From Streptomyces hundungensis (lineage in GTDB: Bacteria > Actinomycetota > Actinomycetes > Streptomycetales > Streptomycetaceae), in the NCBI RefSeq assembly GCF_003627815.1, contig NZ_CP032698.1, positions 6,758,001-6,822,000 on the forward strand: a DNA stretch of 64,000 bases, in the 5' to 3' direction. This document shows, one piece after another, positions 5,876 to 45,283 of the stretch. The notes under the pieces are model-generated. The model had not been told where the DNA came from. It saw only the letters and a list, made by a program, of their open reading frames with translations, and did not search any database. How positions within the stretch are numbered: the first letter of the stretch is position 1; the number at the start of each line of letters is the position of its first letter. The position numbers were made by a program, and so were the translations under genes.

Positions 5876-6826
5876 TCAGCCACCCACACCCCCGGAGGGT
5901 CTCGGGGAGGGGTGGGGTGGGGCGAACCCCGCCGGAGGCGACAACCCGTACACCCCCCGAGCCGTCCCTCCGAACACCGCCCCCCGCTCACCCACCCCCA
6001 ACCCCGCCACCAACCCCCTCCCCGCCCCCAACACCCCCGCATACGACGCCGCCAGCCGGCAAACGGGCCAGTCCGACCCCCACATCACCCGCCCCGCCCC
6101 AAACGCGTCGAGCACCGTCTCCGCGTACGGCCGAAGATCCGCGAGCCTCCACCGCGTCCAGGACGCCTCCGTCACCATCCCGGACAGCTTGCACACCGTG
6201 TTCGGCAGCGCCGCCAGCGCGCGCACGTCCGAGGACCAGGGCTCAAGGGCGCCCGAAGCGATCGGCGGCTTCCCCAAGTGGTCGAGTACGAAGGTGAGTT
6301 CGGGATGGAGCGCGGCGGCCCGGACGCACGAGGGGAGCTGGCCGGGGAGGACCACCAGGTCGTGGACGAGCCCCGCGTCCGCCACCGCACCGAGGCCCCG
6401 CCGCACATCGGGCCGCAGCAGCCACGCGGGATCCCGCTCGCCCTGGACCTGGTGCCGGATCCCGACCAGGCGGTCGCCGCCGGGAAGCTCCCGCAGCCGG
6501 GCCAGCTCGTCGGCGACGCCCGGCGAGGTGAGGTCGGTCCAGCCGACCACCCCCGCCACGAGATCGCTGCCGTCCGCGAGGGCCAGCAGTTCGGGGGTCT
6601 CCTCCGCCACGGTCACCGTCTGCACGAGCACGGTCGCCCCCACGCCCGCGGCCCTCGCTTCCCCGCGCAGCTCGTCGAGCGTGAAGTCCCGGCGCAGCGG
6701 CGCGAGTTCGGGTCCACGGATCCAGTCCTGATCGCGCACTCCGAGCTCCCACACATGATGGTGCGCGTCGACGACGTCAAGGACCTCAGGGACCACCCGG
6801 GCCTCGACGGCATCGGCGGGATTCAC
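5876..6826 (-). CDS. Amidohydrolase-2 family lactonase, probable L-fucono-1,5-lactonase
   Basis: TIM-barrel hydrolase of the amidohydrolase-2 / PDC-lactonase group, 316 residues. The metal motif DAHHHVWELG lies near the N-terminus. FVLDHLGKPPI in the middle and VMWGSDWPVCRL near the C-terminus are diagnostic of L-fuconolactonase and L-rhamnonolactonase relatives. The GTG start overlaps the stop of the mutarotase gene (GTGA), which in turn overlaps the aldo/keto reductase gene, so this is the last gene of a tightly coupled three-gene operon. Its likely reaction is opening L-fuconolactone to L-fuconate, the substrate of the dehydratase encoded at 36.7 kb. Rhamnonolactone is the alternative substrate. 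The C-terminal tail runs to the edge of a repeat cluster. Confidence 0.8.
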   Translation of the reverse strand: MNPADAVEARVVPEVLDVVDAHHHVWELGVRDQDWIRGPELAPLRRDFTLDELRGEARAAGVGATVLVQTVTVAEETPELLALADGSDLVAGVVGWTDLTSPGVADELARLRELPGGDRLVGIRHQVQGERDPAWLLRPDVRRGLGAVADAGLVHDLVVLPGQLPSCVRAAALHPELTFVLDHLGKPPIASGALEPWSSDVRALAALPNTVCKLSGMVTEASWTRWRLADLRPYAETVLDAFGAGRVMWGSDWPVCRLAASYAGVLGAGRGLVAGLGVGERGAVFGGTARGVYGLSPPAGFAPPHPSPRPSGGVGG

Positions 6827-7143
6827 AGCCCCAGCTCCCACACCACCGGCAGCCCCGCCTCCGCCGCCCCCTCGCCCGCATAGTCGTGCACGACATCGAG
6901 CAGCTCGCCCATGCGGAGCTGCCACGCCACATTCACCGGAAGCTCCGACAATTCGCTCAACAAGCGTGCGTAATTCGTGCATTCGATCAGGTGGAACAAT
7001 GCGGCCCCGCTGCGCCAGATCGTCCAGGAGGCGACCCCGGCCGCCCTGATGGCGGCGGTCAGCTCCTGGGGCACCTCGCGGTGCGCGGCCTCGTACTCCT
7101 CGATCCGGTCGGGCCGGACCCGGGTGTGCAGGGCGACCCTCAC
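6823..7143 (-). CDS. L-rhamnose/L-fucose mutarotase family protein (RhaM-like)
   Basis: A 106-residue ferredoxin-like-fold protein of the L-rhamnose mutarotase family (formerly DUF718), which interconverts alpha and beta anomers of 6-deoxy sugars. The family pattern is clear: ALHTRVRPDRIEEYEAAHREVP at the start, then WTIWRSGAALFHLIEC and the tail MGELLDVVHDY. The GTG start overlaps the stop of the upstream reductase gene by four bases (GTGA), and its own stop overlaps the next gene the same way. In this context it would supply the anomer used by the sugar dehydrogenase encoded just upstream. Confidence 0.85.
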   Translation of the reverse strand: MRVALHTRVRPDRIEEYEAAHREVPQELTAAIRAAGVASWTIWRSGAALFHLIECTNYARLLSELSELPVNVAWQLRMGELLDVVHDYAGEGAAEAGLPVVWELGL

Positions 7144-8084
7144 AGGCCCAGCTCCTCCCAGAGCGCGTCGGGTACGGATGCCTCGAACAGGGCGGCGGCG
7201 TCGGTGACTTCGGCCGCCGAGCGCGCGCCGACCAGGACGCCGGCCACCGCGGGGTGCCGCAGGGGAAAGGCCAGCGCGGCGGCCCGCAGCGGAACGCCGT
7301 GGGCCGCGCACACCGCCTTGATCTTCAGCGCCCGCTCCACGAGCTCCGGGGGAGCGGCGGCGTAGTCGTACGTCGCGCCGGGACGGGGATCCGCGAGCAG
7401 CCCCGAGTTGAAGACCCCGCCGACCACCACGCTCTTGCCGCGCGCGGCGGCCTCCGGCAGCAGCTCGTCGGCCGCCTCCTGGTCGAGGAGCGAGTAGCGC
7501 CCCGCACACAGCACGGCGTCCACGTCCGACTCGCGCAGGAACCGCGTCAGAAGCCCCGTCCGGTTCATGCCCGCGCCGATGGCCCGTACGACGCCCTCCG
7601 AGCGCAGCCGTTCCAGCGCCGGGTACGCCTCGCGCAGCGCCTGCTCGGCGTGGTCGTCCGGGTCGTGCAGATAGACGATGTCGACCCGGTCGAGCCCGAG
7701 GCGTTCCAGGCTGGACTCGATGCTCCGGCGCACCCCGTCCGCGCTGAAGTCCCAGCGGCGCCGGTGGGTGGCGGGGACGGCGAAGCCGGCGGCGAGGTCG
7801 TCGCCGCCGCCGTCCCGGGGCTCCAGGATCCTGCCCACCTTGGTGGAGAGCGTGTACGCCTCCCGGGGCCGCCCGCGCAGGGCCTGCCCCATGCGGCGTT
7901 CGGAGAGACCGAGGCCGTAGTGCGGGGCGGTGTCGAAGGAGCGGATGCCCGCCTCCCAGGCGGCGTCGACCGCGCCCCGGGCCGTCTCGTCGGACAGTGG
8001 CGTGAAGAGGTTGCCGAGGGCGGCGCCGCCCAGGGACAGAGCGGTCACCGGACAGTGACTCGCGCCCAGCGAGGTAGCACGCAT
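7140..8084 (-). CDS. Aldo/keto reductase, probable L-fucose (D-threo-aldose) 1-dehydrogenase
   Basis: NAD(P)-dependent aldo/keto reductase, 314 residues, of the subgroup that oxidises L-fucose or D-threo-aldoses to the lactone (pyridoxal dehydrogenase-like). The start MRATSLGASHCPVTALSLGG is typical of that subgroup. The catalytic tetrad is visible as the Asp and Tyr of SFDTAPHYG, the Lys of LSTKVGR and the His of IVYLHDPD. It is the first gene of the operon reductase - mutarotase - lactonase. Upstream, a TAAATA box lies 7 bases before the ATG and a partial copy of the GntR operator lies about 75 bases upstream. The sugar is inferred from the neighbours and from the fuconate dehydratase elsewhere in the window. 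Confidence 0.78.
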   Translation of the reverse strand: MRATSLGASHCPVTALSLGGAALGNLFTPLSDETARGAVDAAWEAGIRSFDTAPHYGLGLSERRMGQALRGRPREAYTLSTKVGRILEPRDGGGDDLAAGFAVPATHRRRWDFSADGVRRSIESSLERLGLDRVDIVYLHDPDDHAEQALREAYPALERLRSEGVVRAIGAGMNRTGLLTRFLRESDVDAVLCAGRYSLLDQEAADELLPEAAARGKSVVVGGVFNSGLLADPRPGATYDYAAAPPELVERALKIKAVCAAHGVPLRAAALAFPLRHPAVAGVLVGARSAAEVTDAAALFEASVPDALWEELGL

Positions 8085-8154
8085 GTCCGCATATTTATCA
8101 GACCTTTGCGGGGTTCAGGCACCCCTCAGGCCCCAATTTCCATACTGGAGGCCC

Positions 8155-9141
8155 CTATTGGTCCGATGTCTGAGGGTCGGGCCACTCCCCGAGCCGGAGC
8201 CTGCTCTCGAACCGGTGCGCCCTGCCGTCCACCGGATCGGTGAACTCCAGCGCTCTGGCGAGCAGTTGCAGGGGCCGCTCGAAGAGCTCCGGCTCGGGCT
8301 CCGGCAGGACGACCGGGTACACCGGGTCGTGAAGGATCGGCAGGCCGAGCCGGTGCATATGGACCCGTAGCTGATGGGTGCGCCCCGTCGTGGGCAGCAG
8401 GCGGTAGCGACCGAGGGTGCCGCGCCGTTCGGCCAGCTCGATCCGGCTCTCGGCGTTGGGCTCGCCCGCCTCCTCGCGGGCGGCGATGACCCCGCGCTCC
8501 TTCACGATCCGGCTCCGCACGGTCACCGGCAGCTCCACGCCGGGGTCGTACGCGGCCACCGCCTCGTACTCCTTGCGTACCCGGCGCCCGCTGAACAGGT
8601 TCTGGTACGCGCCCCGGTCCTCGGGCCGCACCACGAACAGCGCCAGGCCCGCCGTCAGCCGGTCGAGGCGGTGGGCCGGCTGGAGCGCGGGCAGACCGAG
8701 GTCGCGCCGCAGCCGGGCCACCGCCGTCTCGGTGATGTGCCGGCCGCGCGGTGTGACGGCCAGGAAGTGCGGCTTGTCCGCGATCACGATGCGCTCGTCC
8801 CGGTAGACGATCCCCACCTCGAACGGCACCGGCACCTCCGGCGCGAACTCCCGGTGGAACCAGACGAACGCCCCGGCCCGGTACGCCTCCGCACCGCTCA
8901 GCGCCCCGTCGGAGTCGACGAACCGTCCCTCGCGCAGCATCGCCTCCACCCGCTCGGCGCCGATCGCTCCGGCGAACCGGCCCAGCAGGTGATCACCGAT
9001 CGTCGCCCAGGCCCCCTCCGGATCGGCGGGCAGCCGCACACGTACCGGATCGATGCCGTCGCGCTGTGCGAGCGGGGCGGCCGGGGTCCTGGATCTGCGT
9101 CTCACCGAACCAGAGAACCCCACCGCACCCGTCAAAGGCAA
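8155..9141 (-). CDS. RluA-family RNA pseudouridine synthase
   Basis: Converts uridine to pseudouridine in rRNA or tRNA. The 328-residue protein carries the RluA catalytic motif HRLDRLTAGL with the active-site Asp, preceded by VIADKPHFLAVTPRGRH and followed by the conserved YQNLFSGRRVRKEYEAV and TGRTHQLRVHMHRLG. The N-terminal part (about 90 residues) is not an S4 domain. This resembles the RluA/YdcM-type actinobacterial paralogue whose target site is not obvious. Its gene end reaches to 71 bases upstream of the aldo/keto reductase start, so the promoter of the fucose operon overlaps its 3' end. Confidence 0.85.
   Translation of the reverse strand: MPLTGAVGFSGSVRRRSRTPAAPLAQRDGIDPVRVRLPADPEGAWATIGDHLLGRFAGAIGAERVEAMLREGRFVDSDGALSGAEAYRAGAFVWFHREFAPEVPVPFEVGIVYRDERIVIADKPHFLAVTPRGRHITETAVARLRRDLGLPALQPAHRLDRLTAGLALFVVRPEDRGAYQNLFSGRRVRKEYEAVAAYDPGVELPVTVRSRIVKERGVIAAREEAGEPNAESRIELAERRGTLGRYRLLPTTGRTHQLRVHMHRLGLPILHDPVYPVVLPEPEPELFERPLQLLARALEFTDPVDGRAHRFESRLRLGEWPDPQTSDQ
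8159..8169. promoter_or_regulatory. Possible GntR half-site upstream of the fucose dehydrogenase operon
   Basis: TGGTCCGATGT matches the palindrome ACATCCGATGT found at the gntR start in 8 of 11 positions, including one complete half (TCCGATGT). It lies about 75 bases upstream of the aldo/keto reductase start, inside the 3' end of the neighbouring pseudouridine synthase gene. It is weaker than the two sites near 36.5 kb. Confidence 0.35.
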
Positions 9142-9300
9142 GAGAAGCCCAGGTCAGCGCGGTGTCTTCCGGCACCATCCGTACTCCCCGGGGACGGGCC
9201 GAATCTCCCTGGCCTGCTTTCTTCCCGCTCCGGAGGCATGCTGCCAGAGGGATTACCTGCGCAATATCCGTATCCGTCGCGAATGAGGCAAAGGTTCACG

Positions 9301-10827
9301 ATGAGCGAAGAGTCGGTCATGGGCGGCAAGTGCTGTCTGCTCACCACGGGCGAACTCGTGCCCGGGGACGTCATCGCGACGGATCCGGACGGCCCCTGGC
9401 TCGTCGTGGTGCGCACCGCGCCCGCGACCGAGACCAGGACCCGGCTGCAACTGCGCCCGCTGACCGGCGGCCCCGATTTGGAGCGCGTACTGCCGCGCTA
9501 CGAACGCCAGGTGGTCCGCACCACGCGGGTGGACCCGGCCGAGGTCCCGGACCCGGTGCGCCCGGCCGCACCCGAGCGCCGCCGGGTGGTGGTGACCGGC
9601 CTCGGCGCGGTGAGCCCCCTGGGAGGCGACGTGCCCGAGCTGTGGCACGGCCTGCTCGAAGGGCGCTGCGGGATCTCGGTGATGGAGGGCCCGGGCTTCG
9701 ACGGGCTTCCGGTGCGTCTGGCGGCCCGCGCCGCGGTCGACCCCGCGGAACTGCTGCCGAGGCCGATGGCCCGGCGGATGAACCGCTCGGCGCAGTTCGC
9801 CCTGGTCGCGGCCCGCGAGGCGTGGCTGGACGCGGGACTCGACCCCGCCGGGACCGTCGCCAGCGGGCTGCGTCCGACCCGTACCGGAGTGTCCATGGGC
9901 ACGATCATCGGCGGCGCGCCCGTCATGGTGGAGAGCCGGCTCACCCTCATCGAACGCGGACCGCGAGCGGTCTCCCCGTACACCACCCCCATGACCGTGC
10001 CGTCCGCCTCGGCCGCCCAGATATCCAAGGACCTGGACATCCGCGGCGAGGCCAGAACCTTCGTGTCGGCCTGCGCCTCGGGAACGGAGGCGATCGGGCA
10101 GGCCATCGACGCCATCCGCGCCGGACGGGTCGACCTCGTGGTCGCGGGCGGCACCGAGGCGGTGATCACCCCGGAGATCCTCGCCGCGTTCGCCGCGATG
10201 CGGGCCGTCTCGACCCGCAACGACCAGCCCGAACACGCGTCGAGACCCTTCGACGACGCCCGCGACGGATTCGTCCTGGGGGAGGGCGCCGGCATCCTGG
10301 TCCTGGAGGACGAGGAGCACGCCCGGGCCCGCGGCGCCCGCATCTACTGCGAGGCGGCCGGCTGGGGGCTGTCCGCGGACGCCTTCCACATGGCGGCCCC
10401 GGAACCGAGCGGCCGGGGCGTCGAGGCAGCCCTGCGCTCCGCCCTCGCGGACGCCGGGGCGACACCCGCCGACGTCGCCCACGTCAACGCGCACGCCACG
10501 GCGACCATCGACGGCGACCGCACCGAGGCCCTCGCGCTCGGCCGGCTCTTCGGCGACCACACCCGGGACATCCCCGTCACCGCCAACAAGGGCGCCCTCG
10601 GCCACCTCCAGGGCGGAGCGGGCGCGGTGGAGGCCGTCGCCGCGATCCTCACCCTGCGGGACGGCCTCATCCCCCCGACCGTCGGCTGCGACCACCCCGA
10701 GGAAGGCATGGGCCTGGACATCGTCCGCGACACCCCCCGCCCGCTGCCACCCTGCGGCGACATCGTCCTGAGCAACTCCTTCGGCTTCGGCGGCCACAAC
10801 GCGGTCCTCGCCTTCAGACGCGCCTGA
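9301..10827 (+). CDS. Beta-ketoacyl-[acyl-carrier-protein] synthase with an N-terminal extra domain
   Basis: Condensing enzyme of the KAS I/II family joining malonyl-ACP to an acyl chain. The ketosynthase part starts near residue 95 (RRVVVTGLGAVSPLGG). It has the nucleophile in SACASGTEA (Cys258) and the two histidines in NAHATAT (His398) and GALGHLQGG (His435), so the Cys-His-His triad is intact. The first 90 residues (GKCCLLTTGELVPGDVIATD, then a run of short beta strands) are not part of the usual KAS fold and look like a small beta domain of unknown role. The ATG is preceded by AAAGG at good spacing. No acyl carrier, ketoreductase or thioesterase gene adjoins, so it is an orphan KAS and not part of a visible biosynthetic cluster. 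Confidence 0.85.
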   Translation: MSEESVMGGKCCLLTTGELVPGDVIATDPDGPWLVVVRTAPATETRTRLQLRPLTGGPDLERVLPRYERQVVRTTRVDPAEVPDPVRPAAPERRRVVVTGLGAVSPLGGDVPELWHGLLEGRCGISVMEGPGFDGLPVRLAARAAVDPAELLPRPMARRMNRSAQFALVAAREAWLDAGLDPAGTVASGLRPTRTGVSMGTIIGGAPVMVESRLTLIERGPRAVSPYTTPMTVPSASAAQISKDLDIRGEARTFVSACASGTEAIGQAIDAIRAGRVDLVVAGGTEAVITPEILAAFAAMRAVSTRNDQPEHASRPFDDARDGFVLGEGAGILVLEDEEHARARGARIYCEAAGWGLSADAFHMAAPEPSGRGVEAALRSALADAGATPADVAHVNAHATATIDGDRTEALALGRLFGDHTRDIPVTANKGALGHLQGGAGAVEAVAAILTLRDGLIPPTVGCDHPEEGMGLDIVRDTPRPLPPCGDIVLSNSFGFGGHNAVLAFRRA

Positions 10828-10916
10828 GCCGACCGCGGACGGCGAGAGCCGAAAGCGCCCCATGGGGGCGGCAGTTGGCATCGGCGGGCCCGCCGCGACT
10901 CGTCCCGCCCGCGGAT

Positions 10917-10954
10917 CCACGGGTTCTCCGGTCCACGGGTTCTCCGGTCCACGG
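10917..10954. repeat. Short 16-bp tandem repeat, about 2.4 copies
   Basis: CCACGGGTTCTCCGGT is repeated twice exactly, followed by the first six bases of a third copy, in the 159-base gap between convergent genes. A small CGCCCC-ATG-GGGGCG hairpin lies about 50 bases earlier. Nothing else was recognised in this gap. Confidence 0.75.
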
Positions 10955-10986
10955 AATTACGCTCGGCGAACGCATCCGCACCGGCT

Positions 10987-12504
10987 TCACCTATACGTCT
11001 TCGGCGGAGTCGCCTTCCACGTGCGGTCGAGGGAGTCGTCCCAGGTGCCGTTCCGGTCGAAGCTCGCGGCCCGACAGCCGCGGGACATGGGGGCCGCAGC
11101 GCTGTGGCGCCAGGCGGCGTCCCCGATCCGGGCTATGGAGTGGCCGCAGTGCCGACAGGTCGCCTGACCCATCAACTCCGTTGCCAGGCGCTCCAGTTGA
11201 GCGGTGCGGTCCGCCACTTCCTCGCGTACGCCCCGCAGCACGTCCTCGGCGCTCGCCACGCCCGTCGAGTCGATGAGGTCCCGCACGAGTGCCACCGCCT
11301 CGATCGCGATGTCGGCCCGCCGGGCGGCATCGACGAGGCTCTGCGCACCAGAGCCGGCGGAGGACTTACGGGCCGTGAGGTGCGCCAACTCGACCGTGGG
11401 ACGGCTCGACATCGCGGACGGCTCCCCGTCGCCCGCGCGCCGCTCATGCCCCGTACCAGCGACGGCGTCGTCTCCGGCGTCTTTTTGGAGGCGCCTGCGG
11501 GCCACTTCGAAGGCCCATGCCTCGGTCGACGCCTTCTTGGGGACGTTGAAATGCGTGCTGGTGGCCGACTCCATGACGGTGTGGAACTCCTCCATCAGCG
11601 CTCCCCAGTGGTAGCCGCCGGCGAAGTCCTCCGGGCACCAGCCGTAGAGCCGTACGAGTTCGTCACGGACCCGGTCGAAGTGGCGCAGGCTCTTGCGCAC
11701 CGGACCGCGCGTGTCGATGCGCAGGCCGACGCGTTCGGCCTGCGCCAGCACCTCCGGCGGCAAGCCCTGCCACTTCATGTGGCCGTCGCGTTCACAGGCG
11801 TAGTCGACCCAGGACCAGAACGCCTCGGCGTCCGCGACGTCGGGCGCCTCGCGGTGGTGGCGCGGGCACAGCAGCGCGAAGTTGCGCACGTCGTTGGAGC
11901 CGCCGAGCGACTCCGGGACCACATGTGCCCTCTCCACCGGCGCCTGCCAGCAGATGAGGCAGATCGGCTCATCGAGACCGAGGTAGTCGGCGATGGCCCG
12001 GACCGGCGGCCTGGACCGGCGCCGGTCGGGCTCGCTGTCCCGGTTGCGCAGGGGCAACTCCCGGTGGTCGTAGGCGTGTTCACGGTCGGGGTCCCGTATG
12101 GTCAGGACGTCCGGGATGTCCTCGCGCTGCGGCTCGGGGTTCTTCGCGTGGAAGAGCGGCGTGTCGATCTCCGTGAGGTACGGCCCGAGGAACCCGGGGA
12201 GGAACTCCCGCATGATCTCCCGTGCGTCGGCGTCGTAGTCGCCGTCCGCGTCGCGGTGCCCCTGGATGTCGAGATAGACGTAGCGCGGGTCGCCGGGGCT
12301 GGTCGCGGCGGCCGACTTGAGGATCGAGAAGAGGCGGGTGGCGCACTTGGTGAAGTCCTCTTCGACGCGCATGTCGTGATAGAGCGCGACACCCCTCGGA
12401 CGTGCGCCACCCTCGGGCCGCCCGGACCCGGAACGGGCCGGGCCCGCAGTGCCGTCGGCGCCGGCGCGCAGGGCCGGCCCCCGCTTCTGTCGGTCGTCAT
12501 CCAT
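10987..12504 (-). CDS. HNH endonuclease-domain protein with C-terminal zinc ribbon
   Basis: A 505-residue protein of unrecognised overall family. Residues about 178-220 form an HNH/McrA-like nuclease module: CLICW, then the AHVVPESLGG histidine strand, an NDVRNFALLC asparagine segment and CPRHHREAP, so the Cys pairs and the catalytic His are present. Upstream is a region mentioning YVYLDIQGHRDADGDYD, which looks like a folded alpha/beta domain. The C-terminal 60 residues contain CRHCGHSIAR...WRH...RGC, a probable zinc ribbon with a fourth ligand. A coiled-coil-prone stretch lies between. An internal restart near residue 364 (MSSRPTVELAHL) could indicate a fusion of two ancestral genes. No methylase or other restriction partner adjoins, so a defence role is only a possibility. 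Confidence 0.7.
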   Translation of the reverse strand: MDDDRQKRGPALRAGADGTAGPARSGSGRPEGGARPRGVALYHDMRVEEDFTKCATRLFSILKSAAATSPGDPRYVYLDIQGHRDADGDYDADAREIMREFLPGFLGPYLTEIDTPLFHAKNPEPQREDIPDVLTIRDPDREHAYDHRELPLRNRDSEPDRRRSRPPVRAIADYLGLDEPICLICWQAPVERAHVVPESLGGSNDVRNFALLCPRHHREAPDVADAEAFWSWVDYACERDGHMKWQGLPPEVLAQAERVGLRIDTRGPVRKSLRHFDRVRDELVRLYGWCPEDFAGGYHWGALMEEFHTVMESATSTHFNVPKKASTEAWAFEVARRRLQKDAGDDAVAGTGHERRAGDGEPSAMSSRPTVELAHLTARKSSAGSGAQSLVDAARRADIAIEAVALVRDLIDSTGVASAEDVLRGVREEVADRTAQLERLATELMGQATCRHCGHSIARIGDAAWRHSAAAPMSRGCRAASFDRNGTWDDSLDRTWKATPPKTYR

Positions 12505-12587
12505 GACCGCACGCTAACCGCCACCACTGACAACCCGTTCTCCGTACGCCGTTGCGGCGGACAGCCCCACGGGCAACCATGGCCGCC

Positions 12588-13136
12588 ATGGACCGACCGA
12601 GGCAGCTCATCGAGTGCGGGGACTTCGTCCTGCGGCGCTGGCGGGGACAGAACGACTTCGCTCCGGCACACCAGTTGATCGAGGAGTCCCTGGACCACCT
12701 GCGCCCCTGGGAGTCGTGGGTCGCCCGCCACAGCGCGAAGAACACCCGTGATTTCCTCGCGGCGTCCGAGTCGAAGTGGGCGAGCGGTGAGGTGTACAAC
12801 TACGCCATCGCCAAGGACGGCACGCTCCTCGGCATGTGCCAGACCTATCGCGGGGCCGAACCTCAGGGGCGGCACCTGGGGTACTGGCTGCACCCCGCAG
12901 CCACCGGCCGGGGCATCGCCACGGCGGCAACGGCGGCCCTGGTCAAGGAGATGTTCACTTTGCCGGACGTGGAGTACCTGGAAATCACGCACGACGCGTC
13001 CAACGCCTCCAGTGCCGCGATACCCCGCCGGCTGGGCTTCACCGAGGTCCGGCGCGAACCGGGAAGCCCGCCCACCGCCCCCTCGTGCAGCGGCACCGAC
13101 GTGGTCTGGCGACTGAACCGTCCCACCCCGCCCTGA
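12588..13136 (+). CDS. GNAT-family N-acetyltransferase (RimJ/RimL type)
   Basis: Acetyl-CoA-dependent acetyltransferase of about 182 residues, related to the ribosomal-protein acetyltransferases RimJ/RimL. Features are the opening FVLRRWRGQNDFAPAHQLIEES, the acetyl-CoA pyrophosphate-binding loop in GYWLHPAATGRGIATAATAAL, and the late NASSAAIPRRLGF signature. An in-frame ATG nine bases earlier is an equally possible start; neither has a strong ribosome binding site. The gene is divergent from the HNH protein across a short 70-83 base gap. The acceptor substrate cannot be inferred. Confidence 0.85.
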   Translation: MDRPRQLIECGDFVLRRWRGQNDFAPAHQLIEESLDHLRPWESWVARHSAKNTRDFLAASESKWASGEVYNYAIAKDGTLLGMCQTYRGAEPQGRHLGYWLHPAATGRGIATAATAALVKEMFTLPDVEYLEITHDASNASSAAIPRRLGFTEVRREPGSPPTAPSCSGTDVVWRLNRPTPP

Positions 13137-13164
13137 TACGCAGAAAACCCCGCTCAAGATCGTC

Positions 13165-13189
13165 TACCCGACAACGCGAATATGGGCGA
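13165..13189 (+). promoter_or_regulatory. Repeated promoter/operator motif, copy 1 (XRE/DUF6879 cluster)
   Basis: A 25-base block beginning TACCCGACAACGC and ending GGGCGA, about 85 bases before the first gene of the cluster. A second block at 14817-14841 matches it at 21 of 25 positions. The blocks stand in front of two separate transcription units flanking an XRE regulator gene, so they are candidate binding sites for that regulator or a shared promoter element. CATAGACC, a possible -10, follows. Confidence 0.6.
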
Positions 13190-13273
13190 AGTGCCATAGA
13201 CCTGGCATGCGGGCCCGGCCTACCGTCCTCATGGCGGCAGGGAACGCCCCTGCGTCCGAGGAAGGGAATCCTG

Positions 13274-13480: not shown

Positions 13481-13988
13481 CGACTGGCGCCGCTTCTTCG
13501 ACGCCTTCGAGCGCGAAGCATGGCGGTTCGAGGCGCAGCCCACGTACACCATGCCAAAGGAGCAGGAGAACGTGGCCCGCTTCCTGCGCGGTGAGGACAA
13601 GCCCACCGACCACAATGCCCGCTGGCACGAACGAGTGCGCGGGTACATCGAATCCGGCAAGCACATCGGACGTGTCCGCATCGTGCGTCAGCCGCTCACC
13701 GACTACCAGCGGTATCAATTCGCCTGGGGCATTCCCGGAAACATTTCTGCCGGGGAAGACATCCGCATCTTGGATGTGACGCGCGGCGACTTCGGGTTGC
13801 CGCTCTCAGGCCGAGACTGGTGGATGTTCGACGATTCCCGCATCGCTCACCTGAACTTCCGCCCGGACGGGACTCAGATGAATCGTGAAGCGTACGAAGG
13901 TGATCCGGCCCCCTATCGGGAGTGGAAACGGGTCGCCCTGGAGCACGCAGTACCTTTCGAGGAGTACGTGAGGGGCCTTGACGCTTGA
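13464..13988 (+). CDS. DUF6879 family protein
   Basis: A 174-residue protein of the DUF6879 family, common beside XRE-DUF5753 regulators in streptomycetes; function unknown. Recognisable segments are DWRRFFDAFEREAWRFEAQPTY, the middle GRVRIVRQPLTDYQRYQFAWG, and DWWMFDDSRIAHLNF near the end, all characteristic of the family. The GTG start has AGGGAGG seven bases upstream. The 3' end overlaps the XRE gene. Co-occurrence suggests a regulatory or partner role, possibly as a target or ligand-binding partner of the neighbouring HTH protein; this is inference. Confidence 0.8.
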   Translation: MLLDGDDWRRFFDAFEREAWRFEAQPTYTMPKEQENVARFLRGEDKPTDHNARWHERVRGYIESGKHIGRVRIVRQPLTDYQRYQFAWGIPGNISAGEDIRILDVTRGDFGLPLSGRDWWMFDDSRIAHLNFRPDGTQMNREAYEGDPAPYREWKRVALEHAVPFEEYVRGLDA

Positions 13989-14811: not shown

Positions 14812-14816
14812 TCATT

Positions 14817-14841
14817 TACCCCACAACGCCAATAAGTGCGA
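14817..14841 (+). promoter_or_regulatory. Repeated promoter/operator motif, copy 2
   Basis: The block beginning TACCCCACAACGC and ending GTGCGA matches the one at 13165-13189 in 21 of 25 positions. It lies just after the XRE stop and about 60 bases before the next small gene. Confidence 0.6.
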
Positions 14842-36316: not shown

Positions 36317-36534
36317 CCAGTGCCTCCCTACGAAGTTCCCCATGTGTACGCCCCAACCTTACGGCTTCAGACCTACCCCGCCGCAGCCCCCGTGCACAGC
36401 CCTCCCGGGCCGGAAGTGGCGCGGGAAGGGAGGGGCGGCGAAGGGGCCGAAGACGGTGGCCGCCCCTGATTCATCCGAGCTGTGGGCCGGAAATCTCGGC
36501 ACGACCCTGGACGGTGCCGCTCAGGCGGGGATAT

Positions 36535-36564
36535 ACATCGGATGACCGGTAGAGATCCGATGTC
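36535..36564 (+). promoter_or_regulatory. Two GntR-type operators upstream of the fucose operon
   Basis: ACATCGGATGA (36535-36545) and AGATCCGATGT (36553-36563) each match the palindrome ACATC-N-GATGT at all but one of its ten arm positions, with centres 18 bases apart. The same palindrome occurs perfectly at the gntR gene (45273-45283), and 12 bases around it (ATACATCGGATG) are identical. The sites lie about 115 bases before the fuconate dehydratase start. The leader beyond them (36600-36675) contains repeated (G/A)(A/T)TCCA(T/G) units of no known function. Confidence 0.65.
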
Positions 36565-36679
36565 CACACGGACGGGCTTCCCGCGGACGGTTGCGCGGAC
36601 GTTCGTTCAGCGGTTCATCCGGGCGTTGATCCAGGTGCAGATCCATGGGGAGATCCATGCGTTCATCCAGGGGGCGTGC

Positions 36680-37999
36680 ATGAGGCCGAGCGTCACGGCG
36701 TTCGAGGTACACGACATCCGTTTTCCCACCTCGGAACGGCTCGACGGCTCGGACGCCATGAACCCCGACCCCGACTACTCGGCCGCCTATGTCGTGCTGC
36801 GCACCGAGGACGGCCACGAGGGTCACGGCTTCGTCTTCACCATCGGCCGCGGCAACGAGGTGACCGCGGCCGCCATCGAGGCGCTGCGACCCTACGTCGT
36901 CGGCCGCCCCGTGCCGGTCGGCGCGGCGGACCTCGCGGCCCTGCACCACGACCTCACCCATGACTCCCAACTCCGTTGGCTGGGGCCGGAGAAGGGGGTG
37001 ATCCACATGGCGGCGGGCGCCGTCGTCAACGCCGCCTGGGACCTGGCGGCCACCATCGCGGGGCTTCCGGTGTGGGAGTTCCTCGCCGCCATGACCCCCG
37101 AGGAACTGGTCTCGCTCGTCGACTTCCGCTATCTGACGGACGTGCTGACCCGGCAGGAGGCACTCGCCATCCTGCGCGCCGCCGAACCCGGACGCGCCGA
37201 GCGGGCCCGGCTGCTGCGCGCCGAGGGGTATCCCGCGTACACCACCTCGCCCGGCTGGCTCGGGTACGACGACGACAAGCTGGTCCGCCTCGCCAAGGAG
37301 GCCGTCGCGGACGGCTTCGCGCAGATCAAGCTGAAGGTGGGCGCCGACCTCGACGACGACGTCCGCAGGCTGGGCCTTGCCCGCGCCGCCGTCGGCCCCG
37401 GCATCCGCATCGCCGTCGACGCCAACCAGCGCTGGGACGTGCCCGACGCGATCCGCTGGATGGCGGCGCTCGCCCCGTACCAGCCGCACTGGATCGAGGA
37501 GCCGACCAGCCCCGACGACATCCTCGGGCACGCCGCCGTGCGGGCCGGGCAGCCCGTGAAGGTCGCCACCGGCGAACACGCCGCCAACCGCGTCGTGTTC
37601 AAGCAGCTCCTCCAGGCGGGCGCGGTCGACTTCGTCCAGATCGACGCGGCCCGGGTGGCCGGGGTCAACGAGAACCTGGCGATCCTGCTGCTCGCCGCGA
37701 AGTACGGCGTGCCGGTCTGCCCGCACGCGGGCGGCGTCGGCCTGTGCGAACTCGTCCAGCACCTGGCCATGTTCGACTTCGTCGCGGTCTCCGCCAGCCG
37801 CGAGGACCGGGTCATCGAGTACGTCGACCACCTCCACGAACACTTCGTGACCCCCGCCGTCGTCGAGGCCGGCCGCTACCGCGCCCCCACCGCCCCGGGC
37901 TTCTCCGCCCGGATGCACCCCGCCAGCATCGCCGCCCACCGCTACCCGGACGGGCCCCTGTGGCGGGCCCGCCGACCGGCCCAGGAGGTCGCCTCATGA
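36680..37999 (+). CDS. L-fuconate dehydratase
   Basis: Enolase-superfamily dehydratase converting L-fuconate to 2-keto-3-deoxy-L-fuconate in the oxidative fucose pathway, 439 residues. The N-terminal [24 protein letters not shown] segment is characteristic of fuconate dehydratases. The Mg-acid triad appears as Asp247 (AVDANQRW), Glu273 (WIEEP) and Glu299 (GEHAAN). The acid/base Lys are in IKLKVG (217/219) and the His in [11 protein letters not shown] (His349). The ATG has GGGGG upstream. In-frame codons before it (to 36542) have no start with a ribosome binding site and overlap the operator. The ATGA overlap couples it to the SDR gene. Confidence 0.9.
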
Positions 38000-38772
38000 G
38001 CCCCACCCAGGACTTCGACGGCATGGCGGCGCTCGTCACCGGCGGCGCCTCCGGCATCGGCGCCGCCGTCGCCGAGCTGCTCCTGGCACGCGGCGCGCGC
38101 GTCGCCGTCCTCGACCGGGACGTGGCGGGCGCCCCGGACGGCGTCCTCGCCCTGGAGGCCGACGTCACCGACGACACGGGGGTACGGGACGCGGTCGGGC
38201 GGGCCGTCGCCGCGTTCGGCGCCCTGCACACCGTGGTCTCCAACGCCGGCATCGGCGCCGTCGGCACCGTCGAGGACAACGACGACGCCGAATGGCACCG
38301 CGTCCTGGACGTCAACGTCGTCGGCATGGTCAGGGTCGCCCGGCACACGCTGCCCCACCTACGACGCGCGGCCGGGGAGCGGCCCGGCCGCGCGTCCCTG
38401 ACCCAGACCTGTTCCGTCGCCGCCACCGCCGGTCTTCCCCAACGCGCCCTGTACAGCGCCGCCAAGGGCGCCGTCCTCTCCCTCACCCTCGCGATGGCCG
38501 CCGACCACGTGCGCGAGGGAGTCCGGGTCAACTGCGTCAACCCCGGCACGGCGGACACCCCCTGGGTCGCCCGGCTGCTCGACCGCGCCGACGACCCCGA
38601 CGCCGAGCGCGCCGCGCTGCGGGCCCGCCAGCCGATGGGCCGGCTGGTCTCGGCGGCCGAGGTCGCCGCCGCCATCGCCTATCTCGCGAGCCCCGACGCG
38701 GCCGCCGTCACCGGCACGGCCCTCGCGGTCGACGGCGGCATGCAGGGTCTGCGCCTGCGCCCCAGTACCTGA
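37996..38772 (+). CDS. SDR-family dehydrogenase, probable 2-keto-3-deoxy-L-fuconate dehydrogenase
   Basis: Short-chain dehydrogenase of 258 residues: [12 protein letters not shown] at the nucleotide loop, NAGIGAVG, the catalytic Tyr-Lys in [10 protein letters not shown], and [11 protein letters not shown]. In the fucose pathway this family oxidises the 4-hydroxyl of 2-keto-3-deoxy-fuconate. The start overlaps the dehydratase stop (ATGA), giving strong translational coupling. The final diketo-acid hydrolase of the pathway is not seen in the window. Confidence 0.85.
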
Positions 38773-38805
38773 GAGCTCCGCCGTGAATCCACCAAGGACG
38801 GAACC

Positions 38806-39840
38806 ATGAGAGTGCGTACGACAACCGCCGCCGCCTGCGCCGCACTTGTCGCGCTGGCCCTGCTCACCGGCTGCAACCGCGAGTCCGGCGGCGGTTCGGG
38901 CGGCAAGAAGGTCGGCATCGATCTGCCGCGCAGCGACAGCGACTTCTGGAACTCCTACCAGCGCTACATCGAGCAGGGCGTCAAGGCCGGCGAGGTCTCC
39001 GCGCTGCCGCCCACCGACTCCCAGAACGACGTCGGCAAGCTGGTCTCCGACGTCACCGCCCTGACCGACCTGGGCGCCAAGGCGATCGTGATGGCACCGC
39101 AGGACACCGGCGCGATCGCCTCGACCCTGGAGAACCTGAGCCGGCGCAAGATCCCCGTGATCAGCGTCGACACCCGCCCCGACAAGGGCGACGTCTACAT
39201 GGTGGTGCGCGCCGACAACAAGGCGTACGGCGAGAAGGCATGCAAGTACCTGGGCGAGCAGCTCAAGGGCGCCGGCGAAGTGGCGGAATTCCAGGGCGAC
39301 TTGAGCTCCATCAACGGGCGCGACCGCTCCGAGGCCTTCAAGTCCTGCATGGACAAGAGCTACCCCGGCATCAAGGTCTACGAACTCGCCACCGACTGGA
39401 AGGGCGACATCGCCTCCGCCAAACTCCAGTCCACCCTCGCCGGGCACCCCGGTCTCGGCGGCATCTACATGCAGGCCGGCGGCGTCTTCCTCCAGCCGAC
39501 CCTGGCCCTGCTCCAGCAGAAGGGCCGGCTGTTGCCGCCGGGCAGCGCCGGGCACATCACGATCGTCTCCAACGACGGCATCCCCGAGGAGTTCGACGCG
39601 ATCAAGGCCGGAAAGATCGACGCGACCGTCTCCCAGCCCGCCGACCTCTACGCCAAGTACGCCCTCTTCTACGCCAAGGCCGCTCTGGACGGCAAGACGT
39701 TCCAGGAGGGCCCCACCGACCACGGCTCCACCATCGTCAAGATTCCGAACGGATACGAGGACCAGCTGCCCGCCCCGCTGGTCACCAAGGCCAATGTCGA
39801 CGACGCCTCGCTGTGGGCCAACCAGCTGAGGAAGGGCTGA
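38806..39840 (+). CDS. Sugar ABC transporter substrate-binding lipoprotein
   Basis: RbsB/type I periplasmic-binding-like protein anchored to the membrane, 344 residues. It has a signal peptide with lipobox ALLTGC (Cys23), the first-lobe segment KVGIDLPRSDSDFWNSYQRYI, and KIPVISVDTRP and the inter-lobe hinge of this fold. AAGGACGGA precedes the start. It heads an importer (binding protein, ATPase, permease) placed directly after the dehydratase and SDR genes, so its ligand is probably L-fucose or a related 6-deoxy sugar; this is inferred from context. Confidence 0.87.
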   Translation: MRVRTTTAAACAALVALALLTGCNRESGGGSGGKKVGIDLPRSDSDFWNSYQRYIEQGVKAGEVSALPPTDSQNDVGKLVSDVTALTDLGAKAIVMAPQDTGAIASTLENLSRRKIPVISVDTRPDKGDVYMVVRADNKAYGEKACKYLGEQLKGAGEVAEFQGDLSSINGRDRSEAFKSCMDKSYPGIKVYELATDWKGDIASAKLQSTLAGHPGLGGIYMQAGGVFLQPTLALLQQKGRLLPPGSAGHITIVSNDGIPEEFDAIKAGKIDATVSQPADLYAKYALFYAKAALDGKTFQEGPTDHGSTIVKIPNGYEDQLPAPLVTKANVDDASLWANQLRKG

Positions 39841-39842
39841 CG

Positions 39843-41446
<1,604 letters not shown>

Positions 41447-41447
<1 letters not shown>

Positions 41448-42478
41448 TGGCCGACACGGTGACCGAGGCACCGGCAGGGATGCGGGACACGAGCCCGCTC
41501 GGACGCTTCTCCCACATCCGCTGGAGCGACTTCTCGCTGGTCCCCGTGATCCTCGTCCTGGTGGTGATCGGCTTCGTCGTCTCGCCGGTGTTCCTCACCT
41601 CGGACAACCTGATCAGCGTCATCCAGCAGTCCTCCGAGCTGAGCCTGCTCGTCCTGGGACAGGCCCTGATCCTGATCTGCGGCCGCATGGACCTGTCCCT
41701 GGAGTCGACGATCGGCATCGCGCCCGTCATCGCGATGTGGCTGGTGCTTCCGTCCTCGGCGGGGGCCGGGCGCTTCACCGGAGTCGGCCTGCTGCCCGGC
41801 TGGACGGCGATCCCGGTCTGCCTCCTGGTCGGCCTGGCCATCGGCGCGTTCAACGGCTTCCTGATGCTGCGGCTGAACGTGAACGGCTTCATCGCCACGC
41901 TCGGGATGCTGACGATGCTGCGCGGACTGCACATCGGCATCACCGGGGGCCGCTCCATCATCGACATGCCGCCGTCCTTCCGCTACCTCGGGATGACGGA
42001 CTGGCTGGGCGTGCCCGCCGCGGTCTGGATCTGCCTCGCGCTCTTCGCGATGGGCGGGGCGGCGCTGGCGTGGCTGCGCCACGGGCGGTCGCTGTACGCG
42101 ATCGGCGGCAACCCGGAGGCGGCCCGGGCGGGGGGCATCCGGGTCGACCGGGTCACCTGGACCGTGCTGGCCGTCGGCGGCCTGCTGGCCGCGTTCGCGG
42201 GGATCCTCTACACCGGGCACTACGGCTCGGTCGCGGCGAACCAGGGCAACGGCTGGATCTTCCAGGTGTTCGCGGCCGCGGTGATCGGCGGTATCTCCCT
42301 GAAGGGCGGCCGGGGCACCCTCTTCGGCGCCCTGACGGGCGTCCTCACACTCCAACTGGTGGTCAACGTCATGACCTTGGGCGGGGTCCCCGCGCTCTGG
42401 AACCAGTTCCTCAACGGAGCGATCATCATCGTGGCCCTGGTGATCAGCCGCTTCGCGAGCGGAGAGAAGCAGGATTGA
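41447..42478 (+). CDS. Sugar ABC transporter permease
   Basis: RbsC-type inner-membrane permease, 343 residues, about ten hydrophobic helices. The family segments LGQALILICGRMDLSLESTIG, NGFIATLGMLTMLRGLH and GRSLYAIGGNPEAARAGGIRVDRV are clear, and the EAA-like motif is present. TGATG overlap with the ATPase gene. It completes the importer and is followed by a Ser/Thr kinase after about 180 bases. Confidence 0.88.
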
Positions 42479-42655
42479 GGTCCCTCCGCGTCGCGCGTCA
42501 CGGACAAGATCCGCGGGACCGGCCCCGGGGCCCGCCGAGCAGCGGGCGCGGGGCGGTGGGCGGCCGGGGGGCGGAACGCGCCACGGAGTTGGGTACCCTC
42601 TCGGTTGACTTCGGGGCGCCGGCGGGCCGAACTGCCGTGACAGGGGATGGATTTC

Positions 42656-44530
42656 ATGAGTGCACCTTCCACCGACCTTTTCCAGCCGCTCAGGCCCGAC
42701 GACCCGGACGCGGTGGGCGGCTATCGGCTGACCGCGGTCCTCGGCGCGGGCGGCATGGGCAAGGTGTACCTCTCCTACACGCCGGGCGGCCGGCCCATCG
42801 CCCTCAAGGTGATCCGGCCCGAGTTCAGCGAGGACCCCGAGTTCCGGCGGTGCTTCCAGCAGGAGGTGCGCGCGGCCCAGCGGGTGCAGGGCCTCTACAC
42901 CGCCCCGGTCATCGACTTCGACACCGAGGGCACCCAGCCCTGGCTGGCCACGGCCTACGTGCCGGGTCCCTCCCTCGCGCACGCGGTGGCCCGGCACGGG
43001 CGGCTGCCGCTGCGCAGCGTGCTGCTCCTTGCCGTGGGCGTCGCCGAGGCGCTGCACGTCATCCACGGCGCGGGCATCGTCCACCGTGACCTGAAGCCGG
43101 CGAACGTGCTCCTGGCCGGCGACGGCCCCCGCGTCATCGACTTCGGCATCGCGCGCGCGGCGGACGCCACCTCGCTGACCGGCAGCGGCGTCAGCGTGGG
43201 CACGCCCGCCTTCATGGCGCCCGAACAGGCCGCCGCCGGCACGGTCACGGCGGCCACCGACATCTTCGCGCTCGGCCAGATCGTGGCGTTCGCGGCGATC
43301 GGCGCGCCCGCCTACGGCGAGGGGTCCTCGCACGCGGTGCTGTACCGCATCGTGCACGAGGAGCCCGACCTCAGCGCGCTGCCCGAGGAGCTGCGGCCCC
43401 TGGTGACGCGCTGCCTCAGCCGTGACCCGGCGGACCGGCCCTCCCTGACCGAGGTCATCCAGCTGTGCCACGACCTCTCCCCGGTGCCGCTGCGCCAGGG
43501 CGAGGACTGGCTGCCCCAGGCGGTCGCGGGCTCCATCACCGAGCGCCTGAAGCTGCCGGAACCGGCGAAGACCCCGCCGCCCCGGCCGGCCGTCGCGCCG
43601 ACCCCCACCGAGGTCTCCGCCCAGCCCCCGACGCAGGGCGCGCATCCGAACGCGTACCTGCCGACCAGTCACGGCATCGCCGCCGCGCCGACCCAGGGCG
43701 TCCCCACGGGCCCGTCGCACGCCCCCATGGCTCCGGGCGCGATGGGACCCGGCTACCCGACACCGCCGCCCGGCCAACAGCCCGGCTATCCGACCCACCC
43801 CGGATACCAGACCCACCCCGGATACCAGACGCCGCCGCCCGGATACGGCCCCGGCTACCCGGCGACTTCGCCGGGCCACCACCCCGGCCATCCGGCGCCC
43901 GCGGCGAACGGCAAGCGCAAGGGCCTGATCATCGCGGGGTCCATCGTGGCGGCGGTGGCCGGCCTCGTGATCATCGGCGCTCTGCTGCCGAAGGGCGGCT
44001 CCCACGACAAGGCCAAGAGCAGCTCCCCCGTACCCGCCTCCTCCTCGGGCGCCAAGCGCAACGGGAGCACCGGCGGCTCCCAGAACAGCGGGCAGCAGCG
44101 CTCCGACCCCAAGCCGGCCTCGTACCAGGGCATCAACCTGACGGCCAACTACCAGCTGATGCTGGCCGACAACCCGCCGCGCCCCGGCTCCGGCGGCAAC
44201 GCCGGGGTGATGTACAACCACGGAGATCTCTACTTCTACCGGGACAGCCTCTTCGGCGACACCAAGCTCGGCACCGACAACGGCAAGCTGGTCGTGCTGA
44301 ACAACTCGGAGAAGGGTTCGCTGGCGACCTGCCGCGCCGAGACCCGCTACACCGACAAGGTCGGCCTCGACCAGCTCACGGACGGGTCGGAGGTCTGTGT
44401 GCTCAGCGACGCGGGCCACATCGCGGTGATGACCTACCGCGGCAAGTCGGGCGCGAACGACCCGAGCACCTACATCACCCTGGACCTCACGGTCTGGCGC
44501 AACGCCGAGGACCCCAAGAAGTCCTCCTGA
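42656..44530 (+). CDS. Membrane Ser/Thr protein kinase (Hanks type)
   Basis: A 624-residue eukaryotic-like kinase. The kinase domain (about residues 20-270) has the glycine loop LGAGGMGKVY, the ATP-Lys in IALKVI, the catalytic HRDLKPAN and DFGIA, and the activation GTPAFMAPEQ. It continues with a Pro/Gln/Gly/Tyr-rich juxtamembrane linker built on YPTHPGYQTHPGYQT-like repeats. One membrane helix (about 422-442) follows, with no PASTA repeats, and an extracytoplasmic end of about 180 residues containing two conserved cysteines (ATCRAET and EVCVLSD). The start is the ATG after AGGGGA. It lies between the sugar importer and the GntR gene but may not belong to the sugar operon. Confidence 0.87.
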   Translation: MSAPSTDLFQPLRPDDPDAVGGYRLTAVLGAGGMGKVYLSYTPGGRPIALKVIRPEFSEDPEFRRCFQQEVRAAQRVQGLYTAPVIDFDTEGTQPWLATAYVPGPSLAHAVARHGRLPLRSVLLLAVGVAEALHVIHGAGIVHRDLKPANVLLAGDGPRVIDFGIARAADATSLTGSGVSVGTPAFMAPEQAAAGTVTAATDIFALGQIVAFAAIGAPAYGEGSSHAVLYRIVHEEPDLSALPEELRPLVTRCLSRDPADRPSLTEVIQLCHDLSPVPLRQGEDWLPQAVAGSITERLKLPEPAKTPPPRPAVAPTPTEVSAQPPTQGAHPNAYLPTSHGIAAAPTQGVPTGPSHAPMAPGAMGPGYPTPPPGQQPGYPTHPGYQTHPGYQTPPPGYGPGYPATSPGHHPGHPAPAANGKRKGLIIAGSIVAAVAGLVIIGALLPKGGSHDKAKSSSPVPASSSGAKRNGSTGGSQNSGQQRSDPKPASYQGINLTANYQLMLADNPPRPGSGGNAGVMYNHGDLYFYRDSLFGDTKLGTDNGKLVVLNNSEKGSLATCRAETRYTDKVGLDQLTDGSEVCVLSDAGHIAVMTYRGKSGANDPSTYITLDLTVWRNAEDPKKSS

Positions 44531-44547
44531 GGCCCGGCGCGTTGGTG

Positions 44548-44582
44548 CCGCGCGGCCCCCGGGCTCACCAGGGGCCGCGCGG
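44548..44582. terminator. Bidirectional terminator, kinase/GntR
   Basis: Perfect 12-bp hairpin CCGCGCGGCCCC ... GGGGCCGCGCGG between the convergent kinase and GntR genes. Confidence 0.75.
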
Positions 44583-44587
44583 GGCGG

Positions 44588-45259
44588 TCAGAGCGTCGAC
44601 CTCAGCCACTGCTCCACGCTCGCGATGTGCACCGTCGCCCAGGACCGGGCCGCCTCCGCGTCCCGGTCCCGCAACGCGGCCAGGATCGCCCGGTGTTCGC
44701 GCAGCGTCCGGCCCACCGCGTCCTCCTGGGTCAGGCCCCGCCAGATGCGGGCCCGGGTGGTGGGCCCGGAAAGCCCGTCGAGCAGTGAGCACAGCACCGA
44801 GTTCCCGGAGGCCGCCACGATGCCCCGGTGGAATTCGAGGTCCGCGAGGACCAGCTCCTCCACCGAGGGGGCATCGCCCAGGGCCGCCAACTGCGCGTCC
44901 AGCGAGGCCAGTTCGGGCTCGGTGATCCGGGGCGCCGCCATCGCGGTGGCGGCCGGCTCCAGGATGCGGCGTACCGCGAGGAACTCCAGGACCGTGTCGT
45001 CGCGGTGGAAGTCGACGACGAAGCTCATCGCCTCGAGCAGGACCTGGGGATCCAGGCTGGTGACATAGGTGCCGTCGCCCTGGCGGACGTCGAGGATGCG
45101 GATGAGGGACAGCGCCCGTACCGCCTCGCGCAGGGAGTTGCGCGACAGGCCGAGCTCCGCCGCCAGTTCGCTCTCCTTGGGGAGCCGGTCGCCCGGCCGC
45201 AGCGCACCGGAGACGATCATTTCCTTGATCTTCTCGATGGCCTCGTCGGTGACAGCCAT
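44588..45259 (-). CDS. FadR-subfamily GntR transcriptional regulator, probable fucose regulator
   Basis: A 223-residue regulator with an N-terminal winged helix (IEKIKEMIVSGALRPGDRLP, SELAAELGLSRNSLREAVRALSLIRILDVRQGDGTYV) and a C-terminal FCD ligand-binding domain with metal-like residues (DLEFHRGIVAASGN, EHRAILAALRDRD). GGAGG precedes the ATG. A perfect palindrome ACATCCGATGT lies 14 bases before the start. Two near-copies lie before the fuconate dehydratase gene, so it probably represses both itself and that operon. The effector is unknown but a fucose-derived acid is reasonable. Confidence 0.85.
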   Translation of the reverse strand: MAVTDEAIEKIKEMIVSGALRPGDRLPKESELAAELGLSRNSLREAVRALSLIRILDVRQGDGTYVTSLDPQVLLEAMSFVVDFHRDDTVLEFLAVRRILEPAATAMAAPRITEPELASLDAQLAALGDAPSVEELVLADLEFHRGIVAASGNSVLCSLLDGLSGPTTRARIWRGLTQEDAVGRTLREHRAILAALRDRDAEAARSWATVHIASVEQWLRSTL

Positions 45260-45272
45260 GGGCGACCTCCAG

Positions 45273-45283
45273 ACATCCGATGT
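45273..45283. promoter_or_regulatory. Perfect GntR operator at the gntR start
   Basis: ACATC-C-GATGT is a perfect odd palindrome centred 19 bases before the ATG, overlapping the likely promoter of gntR. The wider 14 bases GACATCCGATGTAT share 12 bases with the fucose operon operator. Confidence 0.7.

Follow-up and report, generated by a model that had tools for sequence, protein, structure and literature searches.

A close described relative of the system considered here is the non-phosphorylating L-fucose route 3 (FucM, FucA, FucB, FucC, FucF and FucG), in which a hydrolase close to LRA6 acts after a short-chain dehydrogenase/reductase (SDR) (PMC11199699). The dehydrogenase, lactonase and dehydratase of the fucose route are also annotated in an acidimicrobial actinobacterium (PMC12263773). 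Listings from a literature search of open-licence PMC papers showed no L-fucose regulator of Streptomyces; one Streptomyces paper listed, PMC12402327, uses the term fuconate and was not opened. Here we present a computational analysis of a 64,000-nucleotide stretch of the single-contig 8.39-Mb genome of Streptomyces hundungensis (positions 6758001-6822000; hereafter the window), which holds two gene loci that very probably belong to a single, dispersed regulon for L-fucose catabolism. The proposed steps follow the same order as in route 3 (PMC11199699); a counterpart of its dehydratase was found, as were candidate counterparts of its SDR, lactonase, mutarotase and FAH-family hydrolase. Unlike in route 3, the genes occupy at least three places, control by a GntR regulator of the FadR subfamily is proposed, and the SDR resembles the type-2 branch (4DQX) more closely than type 1.

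A first-pass annotation had assigned a probable L-fucose dehydrogenase (here identified as an aldo/keto reductase, AKR), a mutarotase and a lactonase to locus 1 on the minus strand, and an L-fuconate dehydratase, an SDR, a sugar importer and a nearby GntR gene to locus 2 on the plus strand, 28 kb away. The genes are all where it placed them (Table 1), and the gap measures about 28.6 kb. Its reading of the genes as consecutive steps of one oxidative pathway gains support from enzyme homology and from the gene row shared by relatives. Residues 4-430 of the dehydratase align with the L-fuconate dehydratase of X. campestris (1yey), a family placement made from sequence. The lactonase has 4dlf as its top match in the PDB (E 1.1e-50), and its sole NCBIfam match at 1e-5 is the L-fucono-1,5-lactonase model NF052480. 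Among PDB matches, the AKR is closest to L-galactose dehydrogenases; L-fucose is 6-deoxy-L-galactose. The SDR has 4DQX as its top match, and by hand count Arg170 and Arg231 of 4DQX align with Arg150 and Arg211 of the window protein. A paper on L-2-keto-3-deoxyfuconate 4-dehydrogenase (L-KDFDH) groups 4DQX near the type-2 enzymes and considers its Arg170 and Arg231 to be probable ligands, while giving no functional description of 4DQX itself (PMC11199699).

Gene neighbourhood was compared in a sample of 150 genomes of the genus, with thresholds of E 1e-60 for the dehydratase, E 1e-30 for the AKR and E 1e-50 for the GntR. The dehydratase is present in 97/150 genomes and the AKR in 108/150. Dehydratase clade A (78-86% identical) comprises 28 loci besides the window's own locus and one fragment, and lies in a window-like context. 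Among the 20 of these loci that were fetched, a PAC2 gene adjoins the dehydratase gene in 20/20, an SDR is present in 18/20 and an importer in 14/20. All 20 have a GntR counterpart (86-91% identical) across the dehydratase gene from PAC2, with glpD beyond it in 17/20. In seven of these locus-2 orthologues, the row additionally includes an AKR (52-58% identical) and a lactonase (49-58%). In clade B (66-75% identical), the genes often form one complete cluster. Across 38 cluster loci (20 and 18 from two locus sets), importer, dehydratase, SDR, AKR, mutarotase and lactonase, eight genes in all, stand in one row in 16. In eight complete clusters compared, the AKR, mutarotase and lactonase share 66-79% identity with those of locus 1 (68-75% for the AKR). 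Because their homologues share one row in relatives, the members of loci 1 and 2 are, by homology and neighbourhood, partners in one pathway. The closeness of the two loci, 28 kb apart here, is not conserved, since the stand-alone AKR operon can be distant in other clade-A genomes (at 0.52 Mb in G023, with the dehydratase at 6.60 Mb).

The first-pass annotation had further taken a shared operator as a sign of joint control. As a bare 8-mer, ACATCGGA, this sign is insufficient: the window holds five copies against 1.76 expected, one of them, at 13663, lies at no pathway gene, and 2/100 shuffles reach the same count, so the 8-mer alone was rejected as proof. The pattern ACATCGGATGT with up to two mismatches occurs 13 times against 8.6 expected, and a genome-wide 10-mer count (eight sites, none for the reversed pattern) was not used as evidence. 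The inadequacy of the 8-mer made a trained matrix and relatives necessary, and in that form the idea gained support. A 17-bp symmetric matrix (consensus CAGACATCSGATGTCTG) was built, with the window excluded, from 60 sites in the GntR and dehydratase promoters of the 20 clade-A relatives fetched; training sites had at least 8/10 matches and lay within 100 bp of a start. The four top-scoring window positions are 45270 (25.9), 36550 (23.7), 36532 (22.9) and 8156 (19.6), followed by 9.9, and the best score in 50 dinucleotide shuffles of the window was 17.6. The first three are counterparts of training sites, and only 8156, before the AKR gene, is independent. In relatives, ACATCNGATGT is exact in 18/20 GntR promoters and present with at most one mismatch in 20/20, while paired sites with at most two mismatches occur in 20/20 dehydratase promoters; both groups of promoters make up the training set.

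Relatives with a stand-alone AKR operon provide a further comparison. After exclusion of L127 and L128 (no GntR match) and of L129-L131 (AKR next to an SDR or within a cluster), 15 of 20 loci were counted. The locus-best site lies in the AKR promoter in 15/15, with scores of 12.4-23.1, and 200 column-permuted palindromic matrices reached a mean of 1.5 and a maximum of 14 on the same loci. In both AKR loci from genomes without a GntR match (G027, G132), no such site was found. Like FadR, LldR, PdhR and DgoR, the window's GntR joins a helix-turn-helix (HTH) to an FCD domain and appears to have a palindromic operator. Unlike the subfamily consensus, this operator has no TKGT/ACMA boxes, which are common in the subfamily, with NanR and BioR named as exceptions (PMC4494728). 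Paired sites resembling those of dehydratase promoters also occur between PAC2 and GntR at L169:9121-9155 and L170:8055-8089, in two genomes in which no dehydratase was detected; they may be relics of lost operons.

Beyond the window, the operator points to a distant GH141 gene, in Streptomyces and in other genera. Two genome-wide pattern searches, which covered two site shapes (so that other sites may be missed) and scored the matches with the matrix, gave three new sites of at least 18 in this genome: L190 (23.0), L183 (21.7) and L185 (18.2). The L183 site lies about 120 bp before the gene of an 882-residue secreted GH141-related protein (Pfam GH141_M 8e-8, Beta_helix 2.3e-6), 91% identical in S. 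sp. ASQP_92. Like BT_1002 of Bacteroides thetaiotaomicron (5mqp, E 4.4e-44), to which it is related by sequence, it has both catalytic residues, with Asp523 and Asp564, the catalytic pair named for BT_1002 (PMC10154630), aligning with Asp (hand count, offset 5). Unlike BT_1002, it carries a C-terminal Fn3 domain and its activity is a prediction, namely that of an alpha-L-fucosidase or a related enzyme. Orthologues occur in 5/150 genus genomes, this one included, and their promoter has the locus-best site in 5/5. In an independent named set, of which 75/78 loci were scored (L313, L319 and L321 are without upstream DNA), the GH141 promoter holds the locus-best site in 34/35 Streptomyces loci and in 31/40 others, mostly from Amycolatopsis, other actinomycetes and metagenome-assembled genomes. 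Position alone would give 1.7 and 2.0, respectively, and 200 permuted matrices reached maxima of 23 and 26 (means 4.3 and 4.8). Among the 40 others, 29 sites score at least 12 and 25 at least 18; two of the 31 promoter-best sites have low scores, of 3.5 and 8.9, and the nine loci that lack such a site include both from Kutzneria.

The two other new sites are not claimed for the regulon. The L185 site falls between two genes. The L190 site (L205:5037-5053, or G000:C1:7314036-7314052) covers what may be the start codon of another gene for a sugar-binding protein, beside LacI and ROK genes; a site of at least 13 occurs at the same place in 12/20 loci, this one included, and once despite changed codons. 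At a weak GH29 match in the genome (2.9e-10), no good operator site was found.

From the genes, their homology and neighbourhood, and the conservation of the operators, we infer substrate, repression, inducer and hydrolase step as follows. Fucose or a fucoside would be set free by a secreted GH141 enzyme, whose gene lies elsewhere in the genome, and an RbsABC-type importer would take up L-fucose. Mutarotase, AKR dehydrogenase and lactonase would convert it to L-fuconate, the dehydratase would form L-2-keto-3-deoxyfuconate, and the SDR would oxidise this to 2,4-diketo-3-deoxyfuconate, which an FAH hydrolase, most likely that encoded at 5.398 Mb, would split into pyruvate and L-lactate. Without fucose, the glpD-side GntR would repress the dehydratase-importer and AKR operons, the GH141 gene and the gntR gene itself through ACATCSGATGT-like palindromes. 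In the window, two of these precede the dehydratase, one precedes the GntR gene, and another stands 64 bp upstream of the box in the AKR promoter. Uptake and basal activity may then yield a pathway acid that releases the GntR; L-fuconate or L-2-keto-3-deoxyfuconate is our guess, and FadR-subfamily proteins bind small carboxylic acids (PMC4494728). Such a scheme would provide a complete, testable model of L-fucose use for a large soil genus.

Several observations weigh against this model. Genome and locus counts are raw and ignore kinship among genomes. The GntR is retained in eight genus genomes (G006, G016, G030, G058, G080, G082, G088 and G138) that have no dehydratase at E 1e-60, and a further role of the regulator is therefore indicated. 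The NCBIfam matches of both the AKR and the lactonase fall under curated cut-offs (216.7 of 400 bits for the lactonase), and the solved L-KDFDH structures (8Y4J, 8XWK and 8Y11) rank only 29th-31st of 605 PDB matches of the SDR. Streptomyces GH141 sites are often weak (at least 12 in 26/35, at least 18 in 6/35). Of two characterised GH141 enzymes, moreover, one is a xylanase (PMC10154630), so that fucosidase activity is here only predicted. Finally, the FAH gene occurs in 139/150 genus genomes, against 97/150 for the dehydratase, and is therefore not fucose-specific, and its promoter in this genome scores 5.3.

The last step is where an alternative survives best. The first-pass annotation had reported no final hydrolase in the window, and the genome's three FAH-family genes do lie elsewhere. 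One of them, encoding 285 residues at 5.398 Mb, 1.4 Mb away, is a good candidate. It shares 64% identity with an FAH gene of L072 that immediately precedes the dehydratase, and relatives at 63-65% stand directly before the dehydratase (within about 110 bp) in at least nine loci of eight genomes. Its best NCBIfam match is the equivalent hydrolase of the L-rhamnonate pathway (358.9 bits, under the cut-off of 500). The search for an FAH gene with the same operator, as proposed at first pass, thus yielded the gene but only a weak site, and the low promoter score led us to reject it as a clear regulon member in this genome. A promoter site of at least 15 is found in 11/20 clade-A relatives, against 1/20 genomes without a GntR match; further promoters score 14.4 (G129) and 10.3 (G040), and 5/30 reach 15 in a 30-locus set (L132-L161). 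In many of these 30 loci, an operator-like element, such as CAGTC[AC]TCCGATGGCTG, is seen near -59 of the core FAH gene. That a different hydrolase or an aldolase acts in place of this enzyme is unlikely, with no genome search aimed at aldolases, yet is the alternative to be taken most seriously: the wide distribution and weak operator of the gene would fit it, and an aldolase route is described in PMC11199699, in which route 3 nevertheless has a hydrolase close to LRA6 after the SDR step. With FAH relatives adjoining the dehydratase in other clusters, the 5.398-Mb protein is likely the enzyme of the last step, apparently within the regulon of relatives and not clearly so here.

A quite improbable alternative is that locus 1 lies outside the control of this GntR, with 8156 a leftover operator and the genes constitutive or under another regulator. 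The 8156 operator is weaker than the other three sites and lies 72-88 bp ahead of the AKR start, where it covers the 3' end of the preceding gene; the second box is degenerate, and the operator sequence, TTGGTCC|GATGTC, combines halves of the two codes described below. Its score is nevertheless unmatched in the shuffles, the genome has a single GntR match at E 1e-50, and all 15 stand-alone AKR operons of relatives with a GntR carry a site. Control of locus 1 by the glpD-side GntR is hence the reading kept here.

Operator type appears to track the retained regulator. Contiguous genus clusters such as L065 and L078 are like the window in having the same enzymes (68-77% identical) with an importer and a GntR. 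Unlike the window, they encode a GntR of their own, 50% identical to the window's and with Arg in place of its Ser, and carry TGGTCNGACCA instead of ACATCSGATGT. With class boundaries drawn post hoc, 18 of the 38 cluster loci have an adjacent GntR of this type B (at least 67% identical to that of L065), five have no adjacent GntR, and 15 fit neither class. In the 18, TGGTCNGACCA is perfect in 17 and 9/10 in L366, and no A-type site of at least 15 was found. The five (G085, G133, G008, G065 and G119), in genomes with only an A-type GntR, carry A-type sites of 18.7-25.2 in 5/5, at distances of up to about 1.2 kb from the dehydratase they precede, and lack a perfect B site; in G095, which has no GntR match, neither an A nor a B site was found. 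The A-type proteins read LPKES...SRNS (21/21) and the B-type LP[TA]ER...SRSS (18/18). We take these two differences to correspond to HTH positions 28 and 39, an assumption that rests on E. coli FadR Arg35. For the subfamily, an Arg at HTH position 28 is reported to accompany a G/C pair at operator positions 6/14, with position 39 making a further contact (PMC4494728). With two GntR codes and regulator-less clusters that carry the other code, a joint change of regulator and operator becomes directly testable.

Among the 15 loci of neither class, L062, L063, L064, L066, L068 and L073 have a GntR at 50-57% and, except L063, ACATCCCATCT-like sites. L072, L080, L081, L370 and L378 combine a GntR at 53-70% with ACATC-type sites, and L379 has a GntR at 52% and one site of 17.2. 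L067 and L375 show no GntR in the stretch and no good site, and the promoter of L380 lies outside the contig. L062, L064, L066, L068 and L073 form a third cluster type with another gene order, no mutarotase match, ACATCCCATCT-like sites before the importer and a regulator reading LPPE[PA]...SRNL, perhaps a third operator code.

Locus 1 itself may descend from a complete cluster. Its promoter aligns with those of complete clusters, the GGTCTGATAAATAT box included, and the 17-mer CAAAGGTCTGATAAATA is identical before the sugar-binding protein gene of L069. In quick FastTree trees, from which stop-containing sequences were excluded, the window groups with L069 with SH support of 0.91 (AKR) and 0.92 (lactonase), which is only suggestive. 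Cluster-like promoter, hybrid operator and trees together suggest that locus 1 is cluster-derived and rewired to the resident GntR. We give an even chance to the specific proposal that locus 1 is the relic of a self-contained fucose cluster whose promoter has come to stand immediately ahead of AKR, mutarotase and lactonase and whose operator is converting, half-site by half-site, from TGGTCNGACCA to the ACATCSGATGT of the resident glpD-side GntR, with operator type following the retained regulator and two DNA-binding residues (Arg to Ser, Ser to Asn) co-varying. If true, the set would be a natural test of regulon assembly through operator rewiring.

Least probable is a real pathway that naturally serves not L-fucose but a sugar of related stereochemistry (L-galactose, D-arabinose or another 6-deoxysugar), for which the AKR's L-galactose dehydrogenase relatives, the naming of the mutarotase family for L-rhamnose and the acceptance of D-2-keto-3-deoxypentonate by L-KDFDH (PMC11199699) would speak, and against which stand the dehydratase's closeness to a solved L-fuconate dehydratase, the lactonase's to an L-fuconolactonase model, and the same operator at the GH141 gene.

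Table 1. Features of the window, with strand and supporting match, score or remark
Feature	Position	Strand	Evidence
Amidohydrolase_2, predicted L-fucono-1,5-lactonase	5876-~6826 (start codon uncertain)	-	PF04909 7e-48
RhaM-type mutarotase, predicted L-fucose mutarotase	6823-7143	-	PF05336 6e-19; GTGA overlap with AKR gene
AKR, predicted L-fucose 1-dehydrogenase	7140-8084	-	PF00248 3.7e-45
Promoter box CAAAGGTCTGATAAATA, homologous to complete-cluster promoter	8092-8108	-	matrix 8.8
Putative operator of locus 1, CAGACATCGGACCAATA in AKR direction	8156-8172	.	matrix 19.6, rank 4
Putative operator site 1, dehydratase operon	36532-36548	.	matrix 22.9
Putative operator site 2, dehydratase operon	36550-36566	.	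matrix 23.7
Enolase-superfamily L-fuconate dehydratase	36680-37999	+	1yey E 1.5e-196
SDR, predicted L-2-keto-3-deoxyfuconate 4-dehydrogenase (type-2-like)	37996-38772	+	4DQX 2.4e-43; overlaps dehydratase gene
Sugar-binding protein (Peripla_BP_4, RbsB type)	38806-39840	+	PF13407 2e-47
Sugar ABC transporter ATPase, two ABC domains	39843-41447	+	PF00005, two stretches
Sugar ABC transporter permease	41447-42478	+	PF02653 6.2e-34
GntR, FadR/FCD subfamily, proposed regulator of the set	44588-45259	-	PF00392 3.8e-19, PF07729 2.1e-27
Putative operator in GntR's own promoter (proposed autoregulatory)	45270-45286	.	matrix 25.9

Other features of the window surround this set. A Ser/Thr kinase gene (42647-44530), absent from the first-pass account, separates the importer from the GntR; its best NCBIfam match is AfsK, under the cut-off, and no match covering at least 40% of the kinase was found among the 20 clade-A loci. 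Beyond the GntR lie glpD and then glpK, named by eye from the open reading frame sequences. The ATG at 6982 of the listed lactonase open reading frame falls within the mutarotase gene. The dehydratase frame is open from 36482, and an ATG in this frame at 36560, within the operator, is an alternative start that would allow a longer N-terminus. The leader from operator site 2 to the dehydratase start (36567-36680) is about 85 bp longer than in relatives and seems, by eye, to be built of imperfect ATCCAGG/ATCCATG-like repeats.

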